Below, one piece after another: positions 23,379 to 59,880 of a DNA stretch of 64,000 nt (its first letter is position 1; each line of letters opens with the position of its first letter). This stretch comes from a virus: positions 1 through 64,000 of IMG/VR virus record IMGVR_UViG_3300044648_000098. One strand, given 5' to 3'. The notes beneath the pieces are model-generated. The model saw only the letters and a program-made list of their open reading frames with translations. It was not told the DNA's origin and ran no database searches. A program made the translations under genes and the position numbers.

Positions 23379-23648
23379 TCAGCACGAACGGGGCGCGTCT
23401 TGTCGTCGTGAGGAATACCCGCCGCTTACCCCCGGCGGGGCCGCTTCGGACTGCGGGGCATGAGGGGAATCGCTCTGGAGCGGCGCGAGGGAATCGAACC
23501 CTTCTCTGCTCAGCTTGGAAGGCTGGCGGGTGAGCCCGTCACCTGCACCGCGTGTTCTTCGGATCTCGATGTAGCCTGCGAGCAGCAGGTACGCCACCAG
23601 CAGGACTGCGCCCACCAGGGCGTTGAGGACTGCTTCTGCCAGGCTCAT
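23379..23648 (-). CDS. Small membrane protein, frame running through the tRNA (uncertain)
   Basis: 89 codons from an ATG with a good AAGGGG ribosome site. The first 30 residues (LNALVGAVLLVAYLLLAGYI) form a clear membrane segment; the rest is low-complexity and overlaps the tRNA-Gly gene in full. Either only the N-terminal part matters, or the frame is chance. It sits upstream of the terminase genes in the late region. Treat as tentative. Confidence 0.4.
   Translation of the reverse strand: MSLAEAVLNALVGAVLLVAYLLLAGYIEIRRTRGAGDGLTRQPSKLSREGFDSLAPLQSDSPHAPQSEAAPPGVSGGYSSRRQDAPRSC
23476..23551 (-). tRNA. tRNA-Gly(TCC), phage-encoded
   Basis: A 76-base cloverleaf on the minus strand. Acceptor stem GCGGTGC/GCGCCGC pairs fully with one G-U; the D-arm is GGTG...CACC; the anticodon loop CTTCCAA carries TCC (reads GGA); the T-loop is TTCGATT. 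Discriminator T and an encoded CCA fit bacterial tRNA-Gly, and the anticodon arm core matches that of E. coli tRNA-Gly(TCC). Oddities: one mismatch at the base of the anticodon stem and one in the T-stem, and A at position 8. GGA is a rare glycine codon in GC-rich genomes. Confidence 0.8.
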
Positions 23649-52995: not shown

Positions 52996-53396
52996 AATAC
53001 AAGACCGCAGAACTTGAGGGCGCGCTGCTGGACCAAGCGGTGGCGCTGGCCGAGGGTTGGGAGCATGACCGACCGCAGGATCTCCAGATGAAGCATGCCG
53101 GCATCGTGCCTGGATGTTCGTACAGCCGAGGATTCAGCCGAGCGATCATCGCCCCCAAGCCGACCGGCCGCATGCAGTTCGGCGCGGCGCCCTACTGGTC
53201 GCCCTCGACTATGTGGCACATCGGCGGGCCGATCATCCAGCGCGAGCGGATCAGCGTCGAGTGCGAGCACCCTGACTGCTGGTACGCGGAGGAGCGCTAC
53301 ACGAAGGCGTCCGGTCGCGGCCCAACGCCCCTCATAGCCGCCATGCGCGCGTCCGTTGCTTCCAAGTTCGGAGAGGAGGTGGAACTGCCATGCTGA
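52992..53396 (+). CDS. NinX-like protein (DUF2591)
   Basis: 134 residues: KYKTAELEGALLDQAVALAEGW ... WSPSTMWHIGGPIIQRE ... LIAAMRASVASKFG is the DUF2591/NinX family. Unknown function, typical of lambdoid nin regions, here found in the rightward operon. ATGA overlap with the ASCH-like gene; it overlaps the excisionase by seven bases. Confidence 0.8.
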   Translation: MKYKTAELEGALLDQAVALAEGWEHDRPQDLQMKHAGIVPGCSYSRGFSRAIIAPKPTGRMQFGAAPYWSPSTMWHIGGPIIQRERISVECEHPDCWYAEERYTKASGRGPTPLIAAMRASVASKFGEEVELPC

Positions 53397-53659
53397 CCCC
53401 CGCCGAACTCGCCGCCGCGCTCCGCGTGAGCGAGCGCACGGTCGCCCGAATGGTCGCCGATGGGTGCCCCAGTATGCTGGTCGGCTCCCGAAGGCGCTTC
53501 GACCTGCCAACCGTCACCGCCTGGACCCAAGAACGAGCCGACTCATGCCCATCCGAAAAGACGCCGAAGGCCGCTACCACGCCGAGGTCTGCGTCAACAA
53601 CCGCCGCCTTCACCGACGCCTGCCGGAAGGTTCAACTGCGGGTGATGCCAAGCGCCTAG
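53390..53659 (+). CDS. xis: Excisionase / DNA-binding directionality factor
   Basis: 89 residues. MLTPAELAAALRVSERTVARMV ... RRRFDLPTVTAW is a winged MerR/excisionase-type helix-turn-helix (1-45). The last 38 residues overlap the integrase gene in another frame by 115 bases. Position just before int supports a role in steering excision. The long overlap may tune relative amounts. Confidence 0.75.
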   Translation: MLTPAELAAALRVSERTVARMVADGCPSMLVGSRRRFDLPTVTAWTQERADSCPSEKTPKAATTPRSASTTAAFTDACRKVQLRVMPSA

Positions 53660-54510
53660 AGGCAGAGCTGCGCCGCGCGCTGCACGCGGTCAAGGACCAG
53701 CCCAAGCGAGCCCCGGTCGTCCCTGGCGACCCGCTGCTCAGCGAACTCATGGCGGACTACACCGAGCGGCATTGCCTCACCCTGCGCAGCCCCGAGACGG
53801 CACAGTTTCACGGCTACCGCATCGGCCGGTGGCTCGAGGGGAAACGGGCGTCGGAGACGCGGCAGGTAGCCGGCGCCATCCGGGACGACCTGCTGAAGGC
53901 GTACGCGCCTGCGACGGTCAACCGAAGCCTTGGGGCGCTCAAGAAGGCGCTGTCGATGGCCTGGGAGCAGGACAAGACTTCGGTCGACTACAGCGGGCTC
54001 ATCAAGCGCATCCCGGAGAACAACCAGCGGACCACGTACCTGAGCCTGGCCGAGGTGCGCGCCCTGACCGACCACGCGAGCGATGCCGTCAAGGCGGCGG
54101 TGTGGATCGCCCTCTACACCGGGTGTAGGCGCGGGGAAGTCTGCAAGCTGCAAGCCGAGGACATTGGACGGGACACCATCCGCATCCAGGCCGGGAACAC
54201 CAAGACCCTGCGCTACCGCGAAGTGCCGATCGTCCCGCCCCTGCGGCCCTGGCTGGAGCAGGTCCCGCTGCCGATCAACTTCGAGGGCCTGAAGACCGGG
54301 TTCCGGCGTGCGCGCGAGGCAGCCGGCATGGAGCATGTCAACTTCCACGACCTGCGCCGCTCGTGCGCAACGATCCTCATCCAGTCCGGCGCCGAGCTCC
54401 ACGTCGTGAGCAAGATCCTCGGACACTCCAGCACGAAGGTGACAGAGTCGCGGTACGCGTTCCTCGATCAAGGTCAGATGGGGGACGCGATGAAGAAGGC
54501 GTTCGGGTGA
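53545..54510 (+). CDS. int: Tyrosine integrase
   Basis: 321 residues from the ATG at 53545. N-terminal arm-binding segment (1-60), SAM-like core-binding domain (about 65-150) and catalytic domain with Arg195 (TGCRRGEV), Lys220, His268-x-x-Arg271 (HDLRR), His294 (LGHSS) and nucleophile Tyr304 (ESRYAF). Recombines attP with a tRNA-Val gene of the host. attP core is 90 bases after the stop. Confidence 0.95.
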   Translation: MPIRKDAEGRYHAEVCVNNRRLHRRLPEGSTAGDAKRLEAELRRALHAVKDQPKRAPVVPGDPLLSELMADYTERHCLTLRSPETAQFHGYRIGRWLEGKRASETRQVAGAIRDDLLKAYAPATVNRSLGALKKALSMAWEQDKTSVDYSGLIKRIPENNQRTTYLSLAEVRALTDHASDAVKAAVWIALYTGCRRGEVCKLQAEDIGRDTIRIQAGNTKTLRYREVPIVPPLRPWLEQVPLPINFEGLKTGFRRAREAAGMEHVNFHDLRRSCATILIQSGAELHVVSKILGHSSTKVTESRYAFLDQGQMGDAMKKAFG

Positions 54511-54599: not shown

Positions 54600-54644
54600 T
54601 GGTGGGTGGTACAGGGATTGAACCTGTGACCCCTGCCGTGTGAA
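54600..54644 (-). other. attP: attP core: 45-base 3' half of tRNA-Val(CAC)
   Basis: On the minus strand these bases read as the 3' part of a tRNA: anticodon loop TTCACAC (anticodon CAC), stem GGCAG, T-arm ACAGG-TTCAATC-CCTGT, acceptor strand ACCACCC, discriminator A and CCA. The 5' half of a tRNA is absent, so it is not a gene but an integration core that would restore the host gene after recombination. int is adjacent. Confidence 0.9.
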
Positions 54645-55662: not shown

Positions 55663-55876
55663 CGCCAGCGCACCGAAGCGCCCTCGCGGCCGGCCAAAGG
55701 GCTCAGGCACGGGCCCAATGCTGCCGCCAGAGGAGCGCACTAAGCCGCGCAGCGTGCGCCTCAACGACGCGCGCTGGGAGCGGCTGAAGGCGCTCGGTTC
55801 CGAATGGCTGGCCGAGGTGATCGACGCGGCGGAAATGCCTGCGTCGACTCACTCGGGCGGCGACTCGCAGGCGTAG
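55655..55876 (+). CDS. Small AT-hook / ribbon-helix-like DNA-binding protein
   Basis: 73 residues. KRPRGRPKGSG at the start is an AT-hook; SVRLNDARWERLKALGSEWLAEVID then resembles a ribbon-helix-helix half. A natural candidate to bind the inverted repeat at 55141-55177, but this is inference. Its 3' end overlaps the minus-strand gene at 55849. Confidence 0.6.
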   Translation: MSDASAPKRPRGRPKGSGTGPMLPPEERTKPRSVRLNDARWERLKALGSEWLAEVIDAAEMPASTHSGGDSQA

Positions 55877-56040
55877 ATCTCGGCCGCCTCCTCGGGCGAC
55901 AGGTCGCAAGCCTCTTCCCAGAGGTGCCCCGACACGATCTCGGCAATCTCCGCCGGGGACTTGCCCGGCATCAGCCGGCCGAGCGCCATGGTGGCGCGGT
56001 CCAGCCATTCGGCGCGGTCGCAGTGTGGCGTCAGCCCCAT
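55849..56040 (-). CDS. Small acidic hypothetical protein
   Basis: 63 residues from the ATG at 56040, which overlaps the end of the PEP-CTERM gene; an upstream start at 56064 is possible. MGLTPHCDRAEWLDRATMAL ... EEAAEIYACESPPE, helical and acidic. It seems co-transcribed with the PEP-CTERM gene and could be its partner. Unknown. Confidence 0.5.
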   Translation of the reverse strand: MGLTPHCDRAEWLDRATMALGRLMPGKSPAEIAEIVSGHLWEEACDLSPEEAAEIYACESPPE

Positions 56041-56882
56041 AGGCGCCTCCGGCGGCCGAGCCACACGACGACGCTTCCGAGCGCCAGAAGCGCGCCGGCG
56101 CCCGGCTCAGGGATAGGCGCGCTGACATCGATGTAGGTCCCGGCGTTCATCCAACCCGTCATGGCGTTCGCCGTGGTGTTGGTGATGGACAGGACGAACA
56201 GTCCACCATCGCCCAGCGTGTACCTGAACACGTCCGACAGGTTTCCGCCGAACGCGCTGGTCAGGGAGGCGAACAGGCTCGCGCTCACGCGGTTGCCCAC
56301 ATCGGCCATCGTCAGGCTGGCGAAGGATGCCGCCGTGTCGAGGGTGAAGCTCGTCACCGTGTCGAGCGCGAGCCCGTCGAGCACGCTCAGCGTGCAGAGC
56401 GTGGCGAACGACATCGTCTCGCCGGCGCCGAGCGAGAAGCCGCGGCGCCACTCGGTGGTCACCTTGACCTCCGACCCGTTGCGCGGCTTCGCCTTCGCGG
56501 TCGAGGTGATGCTGGAGTAGTAGACATTCCCCATCCCTGACCCCGCATAGTCCAGTTCAGGCACTCGCGCGATGATCTCGCCAAGCGTGGTGGGCACGCT
56601 CCCGTAGTTGTGCATGCTCGGGCCGCTGCGCCACTCATCCCAGGTGGCGGAGCCGGCGCCGTCCAGGCCCGCCTGATCTCGCGCCTGGACACCCGCCGCG
56701 CGCATGCTTGGAGTGGTCCAGTCACCGTTCAGGTTATGCGGGCCGTCCAAGGCCGGGGACCCGACTCGCAGCGGAGGAAGCCCCCCTTGAAGCACGAGCT
56801 GGGCGGTGTAGTCGGTGGCGTGAGCGAGGGCCGCCCAGCCGAACAGGAGCGCAGCAGCTGCGCCCTTTGCGATGCGTTTCAT
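56031..56882 (-). CDS. PEP-CTERM sorted secreted protein
   Basis: 283 residues. A signal peptide (1-22, cleavage after AHA) leads to a Gly/Ser/Thr-rich beta domain and a C-terminal PEP-CTERM tripartite anchor: PIPEPG (256-261), a hydrophobic helix to 276 and RRRR (277-280). Such tails are cut by exosortase in Gram-negatives that make biofilm polysaccharide. Phages have no exosortase, so the protein depends on the host system. The gene faces away from hicA, with its own leader; probably a lysogenic-conversion factor acting at the cell surface. Confidence 0.85.
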   Translation of the reverse strand: MKRIAKGAAAALLFGWAALAHATDYTAQLVLQGGLPPLRVGSPALDGPHNLNGDWTTPSMRAAGVQARDQAGLDGAGSATWDEWRSGPSMHNYGSVPTTLGEIIARVPELDYAGSGMGNVYYSSITSTAKAKPRNGSEVKVTTEWRRGFSLGAGETMSFATLCTLSVLDGLALDTVTSFTLDTAASFASLTMADVGNRVSASLFASLTSAFGGNLSDVFRYTLGDGGLFVLSITNTTANAMTGWMNAGTYIDVSAPIPEPGAGALLALGSVVVWLGRRRRLWG

Positions 56883-56992
56883 GCTCTCACCCTTGTGCCC
56901 CGGTCATGCGCCAGGGTCATTGAGGATGGTAAGCAGCACCCGACCGCAACGTGTCCCCCCATCTCGGGGGCTCAACGAATACACAAATTTGC

Positions 56993-57021
56993 TTGTACCG
57001 TTTCGCGTTTTTGTTTATGAT
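56993..57021 (+). promoter_or_regulatory. Promoter of hicAB
   Basis: TTGTAC (56993-56998), 17-bp spacer, TATGAT (57016-57021). Near-consensus; start of transcription about 23 bases before hicA. Confidence 0.8.
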
Positions 57022-57050
57022 GCATTCATCGCAACGACACGGAGGGCACG

Positions 57051-57224
57051 GTGAAGATAAGCGAGTTCAAGCGATGGCTTGAAGCGCAGGGGGTGACGTT
57101 CAAGGAGGGCTCAAGCCACTGGAAGCTGTACCACCAGGGCAGGCAGTCAGTCCTCCCGAGACACCCCAGCAAGGAGCTAAAGGAAGGCACCCGCCGCGCT
57201 GTCCTGAAGCAACTAGGTCTCTAA
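57051..57224 (+). CDS. hicA: HicA toxin
   Basis: 57 residues from GTG with GGAGG upstream. Double-stranded-RNA-binding fold of HicA: KISEFKRWLEAQGVTFKEGSSHWK, with the conserved catalytic His23 in GSSH, and LPRHPSKELKEGTRRAVLKQL. An mRNA interferase neutralised by HicB. Directly follows its own promoter. Confidence 0.9.
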   Translation: MKISEFKRWLEAQGVTFKEGSSHWKLYHQGRQSVLPRHPSKELKEGTRRAVLKQLGL

Positions 57225-57296: not shown

Positions 57297-57716
57297 ATGC
57301 AACGCTATCCAGCCCGATTCGAGGCGGCCCCGGAGGGCGGCTTCACCGTGACCTTCCGGGATATCCCCGAAGCCATCACGCAAGGTGACGACATCGACGA
57401 GGCGCGCGCCGAGGCCGTCGACGCGCTTGTCACCGCCATGGACTTCTACTTCGAGGACCGCCGCCCGGTGCCCGCCCCTTCGGCGGCCAAGGACGGCGAA
57501 GAACTCGTCGCGCTTCCGGTGTCGGTGGCCGCGAAGGTCCTGCTCTTGAACGAGATGCTGGCGACGAAGACTCGCCCGATCGAACTCGCCAAGGCCATGG
57601 CCGTCCGCCCGCAGGAGGTCACCCGGCTGCTCGACCTTCATCACGCCACGAAGATCGACACGCTGGCGCAGGCGTTCGAGGCCATCGGCCGGCGGTTGGA
57701 AGTCACGGTTTCGTGA
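57297..57716 (+). CDS. hicB: HicB antitoxin
   Basis: 139 residues. N-terminal partial RNase-H fold (RYPARFEAAPEGGFTVTFRD), linker, then a C-terminal Xre-like helix-turn-helix (about 92-125, MAVRPQEVTRLLDL). It binds HicA and represses the operon. Preceded by AAAGGAAA. Ends 13 bases into the convergent late gene at 57703. Confidence 0.9.
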   Translation: MQRYPARFEAAPEGGFTVTFRDIPEAITQGDDIDEARAEAVDALVTAMDFYFEDRRPVPAPSAAKDGEELVALPVSVAAKVLLLNEMLATKTRPIELAKAMAVRPQEVTRLLDLHHATKIDTLAQAFEAIGRRLEVTVS

Positions 57717-57843
57717 CGCGCAGCACCTCGAGCAGCGCTCGCCACCAGAACCGGCTGAAGCAAGCGGCGGCGGCGAGCGCCACCAGGAACACGGCAGGCA
57801 CGAAGGCGACGGCCATGAGCGCGGCAACGATGGTGCGGCTCAT
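57703..57843 (-). CDS. Small late membrane protein
   Basis: 46 residues: MSRTIVAALMAVAFVPAVFL as a membrane segment and a basic end. ATGA overlap with the metallophosphoesterase gene; its last 14 bases overlap the hicB stop from the opposite strand. End of the late operon. Unknown. Confidence 0.55.
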   Translation of the reverse strand: MSRTIVAALMAVAFVPAVFLVALAAAACFSRFWWRALLEVLRVTKP

Positions 57844-59066
57844 ACCGCGTAGACCTCTTTCGCTGCGACCTTGCCTCCTCCGCCCTTGATGCGGTCGCGG
57901 ATCTCGTCGATCGACAGGACGCGCCGGCCGACGTCGCCATAGGTGCGACTGCGGAGCACGACGGTGATCGCCTTGCGGGCCCTGTAGCCAGCGTCGTGCG
58001 CCCACTTGTCGTTGGACGCCAGATGGTTCCATGACTCGATGGTCACGCTCGGGTGGTCCTTCGACACGAACCCGTGGTGGACGTGCCCGATGTCGATGTA
58101 GTGGAAGTCCGTCTCGCCGAAGTCCTTGCGGAAGTCGGAGGTCATCACGCCCACGAGGCGCGCCGGCGGGCACTTGTCGCTGTGGTGAACCATGACCAGC
58201 GTCTTGCCCATGCGGTACGGGATGAACACGCTGTCGTTGTCGAGCACGTGCACCCGCCCGGTGTGGCCGTAGGCCACGGTGAGCAGTTCACGCATCCAGA
58301 AGTCATTGATGCGGCTGTGGTTGCCCTGGTTGATGATGACGTCGACGTGGCGGGCCTTCTCCAGCGCTTTGTCTACGATCGAGCGCATGGTGCGGCTGTA
58401 GACGCGCAGCATCTTCGGGTGCCGGCCGTCGGCGTCAAGCGCATGCCCGCTTGCGGCCGTGGTGGCCGCGAGGTTGTCGTAGTGGGTGGCGTCGCCGAGG
58501 TCGTTGATGACGATCCGCTCACATGCTGGCATCTCGTCGATCAGCAGGCCGATGGCCCCGCACAGCTCGCGCTCGGCAATGCGGAGGTCGAAGTTCTCGC
58601 CCGTCTCGGCAGCGTGGGCCAGCATGCCGATGTGGGCGTCGCCGATCTGGATCCAGGGAATGATGTCGGTCTGGAAGTCCAGCGGCGCCGGCGGCGGCGT
58701 GATCGGCTGGACGTCACCGACGAACTCGGCGATGGCCTGCTGCATTGCCTCGAGCTGAGCCTCTGCTGCCAGATGCGCCTTCACCCACTGGCCGGTTGGC
58801 TTCCCGTCCTTGTTGTAGTAGGTGCTGACGCCCTTTGCGACGTGGGTCGGCGGCACCGGCCGCGTCCAGTCGTGGTCGGGGCTGTACCCACGCAGCGCAG
58901 CCTTCGCCTTCGCCGCCTCGACTCCCTTGCGCACTGAAGTGAAGTTGACGCCGAGCACACGCGCGGCGGCGCGCATCGACCCGTGCTTGATGACCGCGTC
59001 GATGTAGCGGCACTGGGTCTCGGAGGCGAACTGCTTCAGGTTCTCGTCCACGGTGGCAGGCGTCAT
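57840..59066 (-). CDS. Calcineurin-like metallophosphoesterase with N-terminal HTH
   Basis: 408 residues. N-terminal helix-turn-helix (GSMRAAARVLGVNFTSVRKGVE, about 29-50); metallophosphoesterase motifs GDAHIG (Asp143/His145), LGDATHYDN, NQGNHSR, VHHSD and GHVHHG. This HTH plus phosphoesterase form occurs in many phages, sometimes called oxidoreductase by mistake. Substrate unknown (phospho-ester or nucleic acid). Located after the lysis genes in the late operon. Confidence 0.85.
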   Translation of the reverse strand: MTPATVDENLKQFASETQCRYIDAVIKHGSMRAAARVLGVNFTSVRKGVEAAKAKAALRGYSPDHDWTRPVPPTHVAKGVSTYYNKDGKPTGQWVKAHLAAEAQLEAMQQAIAEFVGDVQPITPPPAPLDFQTDIIPWIQIGDAHIGMLAHAAETGENFDLRIAERELCGAIGLLIDEMPACERIVINDLGDATHYDNLAATTAASGHALDADGRHPKMLRVYSRTMRSIVDKALEKARHVDVIINQGNHSRINDFWMRELLTVAYGHTGRVHVLDNDSVFIPYRMGKTLVMVHHSDKCPPARLVGVMTSDFRKDFGETDFHYIDIGHVHHGFVSKDHPSVTIESWNHLASNDKWAHDAGYRARKAITVVLRSRTYGDVGRRVLSIDEIRDRIKGGGGKVAAKEVYAV

Positions 59067-59338
59067 GTGGGGTGTCCTTCGCGGATGAAAGCCGGCTGCA
59101 TGACCTTGAGCGGGCAGAGTTTCGTGACCATCGCCCGCGGGATCGCGGTGCGCGGGCCGATGAAGTCGGGATGCCAGGCGGCGGTGAGGATGAAGGCCTC
59201 GGGCGTCTCCGCGAGGATGTAGCCCACCTGGTGCACGATGACCGGCTGGTAGGTGTGGTCCGTGGTGTGGACCCAGCCGGTCTCGAGGTCGAGCTCGTGC
59301 GCGTCCTCCCACTCGATGTAGACCAGCGGGGGGATCAT
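59063..59338 (-). CDS. Conserved hypothetical late protein
   Basis: 91 residues: MIPPLVYIEWEDAHELDLETGW ... AWHPDFIGPRTAIPRAMV. A phage family typified by VxWxDA...GW followed by a Pro-rich end. It has ATGA overlaps with both neighbours. Unknown, between spanin and phosphoesterase genes. Confidence 0.6.
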   Translation of the reverse strand: MIPPLVYIEWEDAHELDLETGWVHTTDHTYQPVIVHQVGYILAETPEAFILTAAWHPDFIGPRTAIPRAMVTKLCPLKVMQPAFIREGHPT

Positions 59339-59880
59339 TCGGCGCCCCTGGTCAGCGCGTCATAGGACCGCTCGCAGGCGAGGCCGGCGATTCGGGCGGC
59401 GTCGGCGTGGGCAGCAAGCTGTCCAGCAGCCTCACCAATCCGGGCGAGCAGCGCGTCGGCTGGCAAATCGGCGGCGGGCTCGGCTGCCGGGCCGCCTTGG
59501 GGAGCGGCGGGATCGCCGGCGGCGGCACGACGGGCGGCGTCGGCGGCGACACGCTGGCGCAGCCGGCGCAGAGCATCAGCAGCAGCGCCGGCATCAGCGC
59601 GGGCGGCCTCGAGTTGGCGAGTGGCTTCATCTTCGGCTTCCTTCTGTGCTTGGATGCGGCGCTGTTCCTCGCGCCGGTAATTCTCGGAGGCGAGGCGCGC
59701 GGTGCGCTCGGCGTCGGCGCGGTGCTTGGCGAAGGCTGCGTCGAGCTTGGCGTGGGCGCTCTGGGCGCGGGCCAGGCGGACGGTCTGCACGGTGGCCGCG
59801 GCGGCGAAGGCCAGGGCCGCAGCGATGGCCGCGTAGGCGATCAGCTTCTGGGCGGTTGATGCGACGCTGAAGGGGTTCAT
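59335..59880 (-). CDS. i-spanin (Rz-like)
   Basis: 181 residues. An N-terminal membrane segment (ALAFAAAATVQTVRLARAQ, about 22-40) precedes a long Ala/Arg/Glu coiled coil and a C-terminal helical part with GLACERSYDAL. Inner-membrane spanin that joins with the lipoprotein encoded inside the same DNA in another frame to fuse the two membranes in lysis. Confidence 0.85.
   Translation of the reverse strand: MNPFSVASTAQKLIAYAAIAAALAFAAAATVQTVRLARAQSAHAKLDAAFAKHRADAERTARLASENYRREEQRRIQAQKEAEDEATRQLEAARADAGAAADALRRLRQRVAADAARRAAAGDPAAPQGGPAAEPAADLPADALLARIGEAAGQLAAHADAARIAGLACERSYDALTRGAE
59352..59630 (-). CDS. o-spanin (Rz1-like), nested in the i-spanin gene
   Basis: 92 residues in a different frame, wholly inside the Rz-like gene. 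Signal peptide with lipobox LCAGC then a Pro-rich chain (SVSPPTPPVVPPPAIPP): the pattern of Rz1 outer-membrane lipoproteins. The full nesting is the lambda arrangement. Confidence 0.85.
   Translation of the reverse strand: MKPLANSRPPALMPALLLMLCAGCASVSPPTPPVVPPPAIPPLPKAARQPSPPPICQPTRCSPGLVRLLDSLLPTPTPPESPASPASGPMTR

Follow-up and report, generated by a model that had tools for sequence, protein, structure and literature searches.

The circular phage genome in virus record IMGVR_UViG_3300044648_000098 carries a gene for an exported protein with a PEP-CTERM sorting signal. We consider it probable that this temperate phage of an exosortase-bearing bacterium uses the gene for lysogenic conversion, as a moron that alters the surface of the lysogen. 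The window analysed here comprises 64,000 nucleotides, positions 1 to 64,000 of the record, and all coordinates refer to it (Table 1).

Table 1. Features around the PEP-CTERM gene in the window
Feature	Position	Strand	Basis
Tyrosine integrase	53356..54510	+	PF00589 4e-22
attP core, 3' half of tRNA-Val (CAC)	54600..54644	-	sequence match
Small ORF overlapping the 3' end of the PEP-CTERM gene	55849..56064	-	
PEP-CTERM protein gene, 283 aa	56031..56882	-	TIGR02595, PF07589, dN/dS vs G001
PEP-CTERM tail codons (PEP motif, hydrophobic stretch, RRRR)	56034..56117	-	PF07589 match 56043-56117
Signal peptide codons, residues 1-22, AHA/TD	56817..56882	-	sequence read directly
AT-rich intergenic control region, common to the PEP-CTERM gene and divergent hicAB	56883..57050	.	
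hicA toxin gene	57051..57224	+	PF07927 8e-12, phrog_353
hicB-like antitoxin gene	57297..57716	+	PF15919 2e-6
DNA repair exonuclease-like gene	57840..59312	-	phrog_704 1.5e-93
Rz-like spanin	59335..59880	-	phrog_312 4e-25
Endolysin (phage lysozyme)	60103..60612	-	PF00959 1e-14

The PEP-CTERM protein and its sister in a related phage

The open reading frame that the initial annotation had assigned to the PEP-CTERM protein is real and, read directly from the sequence, lies on the minus strand; the plus strand over the same interval, read in the given frame, is broken by stops. Coding score and GC3 (0.86) resemble those of the other genes of the phage, and an RBS-like sequence, AAGGGTGAG, directly precedes the start. 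The signal peptide and the anchor of PEP motif, hydrophobic helix and RRRR that had been described are both present in the ORF. Judged by eye, the N-terminus, MKRIAKGAAAALLFGWAALAHA followed by TDY, has a KR start, a hydrophobic core and an AxA cleavage site (AHA before T). The C-terminus, PIPEPGAGALLALGSVVVWLGRRRRLWG, holds IPEP, a hydrophobic stretch taken by eye to span the membrane, and RRRR. Recognition of this C-terminus by the PEP-CTERM profiles held for TIGR02595 (17.3 bits, cut-off 16) and for PF07589 in a six-frame search (22.6 bits, E 1.3e-5, cut-off 20.7), and failed for PF07589 on the whole protein (17.9 bits). Since PF07589 scored above the cut-off in one mode and below it in the other, the protein is, by its sequence, a genuine but not a strong member of the class. 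The same PF07589 search gave nothing above the cut-off in 48 phage records chosen for a common exonuclease or in 14 control genomes, which makes chance a poor explanation of the tail. Assignment to the MYXO-CTERM (myxosortase) class was rejected because the tail has no Cys before the transmembrane stretch; the TIGR03382 score was 15.8, just below the cut-off of 15.85.

The ectodomain matched no family, none of the described PEP-CTERM subfamilies reached the cut-off of its model, and no homolog of the protein was found in the named phages and plasmids searched. The predicted structure had a pLDDT of 32 and was unusable.

The same protein is encoded by a sister phage, G001. Over codons 1-260 the comparison gave dN 0.013 and dS 0.176 (dN/dS ~0.07), and by this measure the protein is under strong purifying selection. 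At about codon 236 the divergence of the DNA rises steeply (dS 1.6), and beyond codon 260 no more than 28 of 60 bases are identical. The G001 protein is nearly the same as that of the window ahead of the PEP motif, and its tail, though highly diverged, is still recognised as PEP-CTERM (24.5 bits in the six-frame search). As far as this alignment tells, the sorting signal was retained through replacement or divergence of its sequence, and the simplest reading is recombination with a putative divergent homolog. A stretch 84% identical to the small ORF at the 3' end of the gene sits 3.5 kb further away in G001.

The accessory locus and its phage

The virus record has 64,563 bases of which the first and last 127 are identical, so it represents a closed circle of ~64.4 kb, arbitrarily cut. 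It is a complete circular temperate phage, in which we found genes for portal, terminase, major head, tape measure, tail, lysozyme and spanin as well as a tyrosine integrase. The phage also has a tRNA-Gly(TCC) gene close to the terminase genes (23476-23551, minus strand), a DNA methyltransferase gene with 75% DNA identity to Bordetella phage PHB04 (50681-51160), and 102 bases with 86% identity to Myxococcus phage Mx8 (52755-52856). The tRNA-Val(CAC) stretch that forms the attP core recurs, whole or in part, in other phages, in one of which it is annotated as attP. With the phage integrated at tRNA-Val, the integrase would be near one end of the prophage and the PEP-CTERM gene ~1.4 kb from the other, a usual location of lysogenic-conversion genes.

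With attP on one side and the lysis genes on the other, the gene is divergent from hicA-hicB over a 168-base AT-rich gap; the lysis and exonuclease genes are on the far side of hicAB. The exonuclease-like gene, whose true start is probably ~59084, is the last gene ahead of the hicAB-PEP cassette. In a relative with an 83% identical exonuclease (L007) this gene is followed by 275 unaligned bases and then a SRAP-like ORF, with no hicAB-PEP, whereas in G001 the interval after the exonuclease extends over 2.6 kb, in which hicAB, the PEP-CTERM gene and a 309-aa ORF are found. This makes the cassette accessory. Together with the integrase, attP and the divergent hicAB, its absence from L007 marks the gene as an accessory gene of a temperate phage standing apart from the neighbouring operons, as a moron does, and the cargo location proposed earlier is borne out. 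The SRAP-like (HMCES-type) ORF, recognised by eye, lies next to the exonuclease region in the two relatives L002 (5046-5780) and L007 (3425-4138) and is absent there in the window. hicB also occurs no more than a few kb away from the PEP-CTERM genes of unrelated phages (the window, L232, L179 and L165), a proximity that partly reflects the search route since some of the phages were found via hicB; hicA beside hicB was seen in the window and in G101.

An exosortase gene was found in none of the 17 records tested, so the host must supply the enzyme. Dependence on a host sorting enzyme, also put forward in the initial annotation, agrees with this, and from these gene contents we may fairly infer that the host is limited to exosortase bearers. 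Two scans of genome contigs, by alignment of the PEP protein and of the exonuclease, found no relative.

PEP-CTERM genes of other phages and their promoter

PEP-CTERM tails were also sought in other phages, as the initial annotation had suggested. The survey covered phages sharing hicB, the exonuclease or a Q-like gene, plus relatives of the family A protein, and gave 11 further PEP-CTERM genes in nine other phage records (sister G001, G024, G040, G099 with two, G100, G101, G104 with two, G105 and G123). The name Q-like stands for position and zinc-finger-like cysteines, without a family match. Including the window, the ectodomains fall into four unrelated families: A (six genes), B (three), C (one) and that of the window and G001. 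Terminase, portal and major head genes were present in all four contigs checked (G024, G040, G099 and G100). One gene, of G102, was left out of the phage counts because a contig end is 2.7 kb away and the gene is possibly host DNA; several relatives are fragments. Families A-C cluster by a conserved Q-like gene, often near RusA, and several of their genes are opposite in strand to their neighbours. In G099 (L172) and G104 (L228), a family A and a family B gene flank one Q-like gene. No homolog was found for family A in named phages or for family B in named phages and plasmids, and PHROGs had no family for the three of these phage PEP-CTERM proteins scanned. A structure model of family A (pLDDT 62) gave no significant PDB match.

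In proteobacteria, 99 of 167 PEP-CTERM genes are preceded by a TTTACA-containing motif, a spacer of ~63 nt and a sigma-54 site, and the distribution of this promoter is matched by that of PrsK, PrsR and PrsT; PEP-CTERM genes were also reported on a plasmid (Haft 2006, PMC1569441). Ten of the 11 further phage genes, that is all those of families A-C, have near-consensus TTTACA and sigma-54 -24/-12 elements. The motif (CTTACA in two cases) is followed after 51-52 nt (families B and C) or 62-64 nt (family A), spacer classes about one helical turn apart, by a TGGCAC-N5-TTGC-type site 24-40 nt before the start. Each of the paired genes in G099 and G104 has its own such region. Neither the window gene nor its G001 sister has such a pair upstream, and the G102 gene lacks it too. 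Against the background rate, the probability of a promoter in 10 of 13 genes (G102 counted) is near 1e-25, and that of its occurrence in three of five independent families is ~6e-8. A stricter scan of ~3 Mb of phage DNA (with redundancy) gave 12 distinct pairs, nine of them directly upstream of a PEP-CTERM gene and one more, by the Q-like gene, directed off the end of its contig. The last 110 bases of L185, minus strand, contain a perfect pair, 22 bases short of the contig end and next to the Q-like gene, and a PEP-CTERM gene is predicted just beyond that end. When the viral collection was scanned blind, starting from the promoter, 82 stretches were returned, mostly chance matches in AT-rich DNA; wherever a PEP-CTERM gene followed, the spacer measured 51-52 or 62-64 nt. 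The new PEP-CTERM genes obtained in this way were those of L275 and L298, in phage contexts, and those of L279 (host-like) and L266 (mixed, possibly host DNA), which were excluded as phage genes.

The general idea of phage-borne exosortase substrates is strengthened by the nine further records and by the promoter on 10 of the 11 genes. The chances seem about even that temperate phages of exosortase bacteria repeatedly acquired such substrates together with the PrsR/sigma-54 control region, so that the prophage protein is displayed at the cell surface or within the matrix just when the host turns on its exopolysaccharide programme. Alternatively, the gene may be a recently captured host gene riding as neutral cargo, with no phage function; PEP-CTERM genes are abundant in exosortase hosts and the promoter of the other phages looks host-derived. 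We think this unlikely, given the low dN/dS of the window protein, the recurrence of the genes in unrelated families, and family A, in which identity between phages has fallen to 32-61% yet the tail and mostly also the place by the same Q-like gene are kept.

Proposed role and relation to known systems

Known cases of lysogenic conversion involve toxins, O-antigen enzymes and outer-membrane proteins. Exosortase sorting is a system of environmental biofilm and floc bacteria, and its chemistry and purpose are poorly known. From their sequences and contexts, phage PEP-CTERM genes are most likely lysogenic-conversion genes that change the surface or matrix of the lysogen. The window protein would be made by the lysogen and exported via Sec, after which the C-terminal helix and arginines would hold it in the inner membrane. 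The host exosortase would then recognise the PEP motif, cleave the protein and pass it to the cell surface or the exopolysaccharide matrix. The altered surface would most plausibly hinder adsorption of competing phages or bind matrix polysaccharide; put differently, the benefit may be that competing phages are excluded, or that cells aggregate and bind matrix. In the promoter-bearing relatives the protein is probably made as the host turns on its PEP-CTERM/exopolysaccharide regulon. The gene, its tail and export signal, its phage context, the purifying selection and the recurrence in unrelated phages are established here, as is the regulon promoter for the other families; we infer that the host exosortase sorts the protein, that it reaches the surface, and that lysogen and phage profit from it. 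Several observations count against this explanation for the window itself: its gene and that of the sister phage have no regulon promoter, which leaves expression in the lysogen unsupported, the PF07589 score of the whole protein is below the cut-off, the ectodomain has neither a family nor a usable model, and the two contig scans found no relative.

The missing promoter and the weak Pfam score would suit a secreted or membrane protein of the lytic phase, such as an envelope factor or a released decoy, with a tail that is PEP-like and not an exosortase substrate. The position of the gene downstream of the lysis genes and on their strand also agrees with such a role, which we nevertheless regard as quite improbable: hicAB, on the opposite strand, intervenes between the gene and the lysis genes, TIGR02595 scores above its cut-off, the features of the tail are kept despite strong sequence divergence, and the other phages have strong PEP-CTERM tails under a host regulon promoter. 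A decoy substrate that keeps the host exosortase busy, so that fewer host PEP-CTERM proteins are displayed and cells are, for instance, freed from flocs, would fit all sequence data and would, with the promoter of the other phages, be co-expressed with host substrates, but it is very unlikely because a conserved ectodomain of ~230 residues under purifying selection would be unnecessary for it.

If the phage genes do serve lysogenic conversion, phages would exploit the exosortase surface sorting of biofilm and floc bacteria, prophages could remodel the matrix around bacteria of activated sludge and soil, and the phage-borne substrates would be a natural collection from which to define exosortase recognition. 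The promoter finding ties this phage cargo to the host exopolysaccharide switch. Among open-access titles and abstracts we found none on phage-borne PEP-CTERM genes; an earlier report may exist elsewhere.

The window protein resembles the described PEP-CTERM proteins (TIGR02595/PF07589; PMC1569441) in its signal peptide, PEP motif, hydrophobic stretch and basic C-terminus, and most of the other phages share with them the TTTACA/sigma-54 upstream region. It differs in being phage-encoded, in the missing promoter of its gene and in an ectodomain outside the described subfamilies. PepA, a floc-associated PEP-CTERM protein of Aquincola, is expressed in an RpoN-dependent manner and its overexpression raises cell-bound exopolysaccharide (PMC9850573). 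The tails of other phage proteins align to that of PepA (NF033554), a match confined to the tail and far below the model cut-off; for the window protein no such match was reported. The lom and bor genes of lambda and the superinfection-exclusion genes of P22 are lysogenic-conversion surface genes. No sequence relation to them was found and the export route differs, with an exosortase tail here, but the gene described in this work is like them an accessory gene of a temperate phage with an envelope-directed product.
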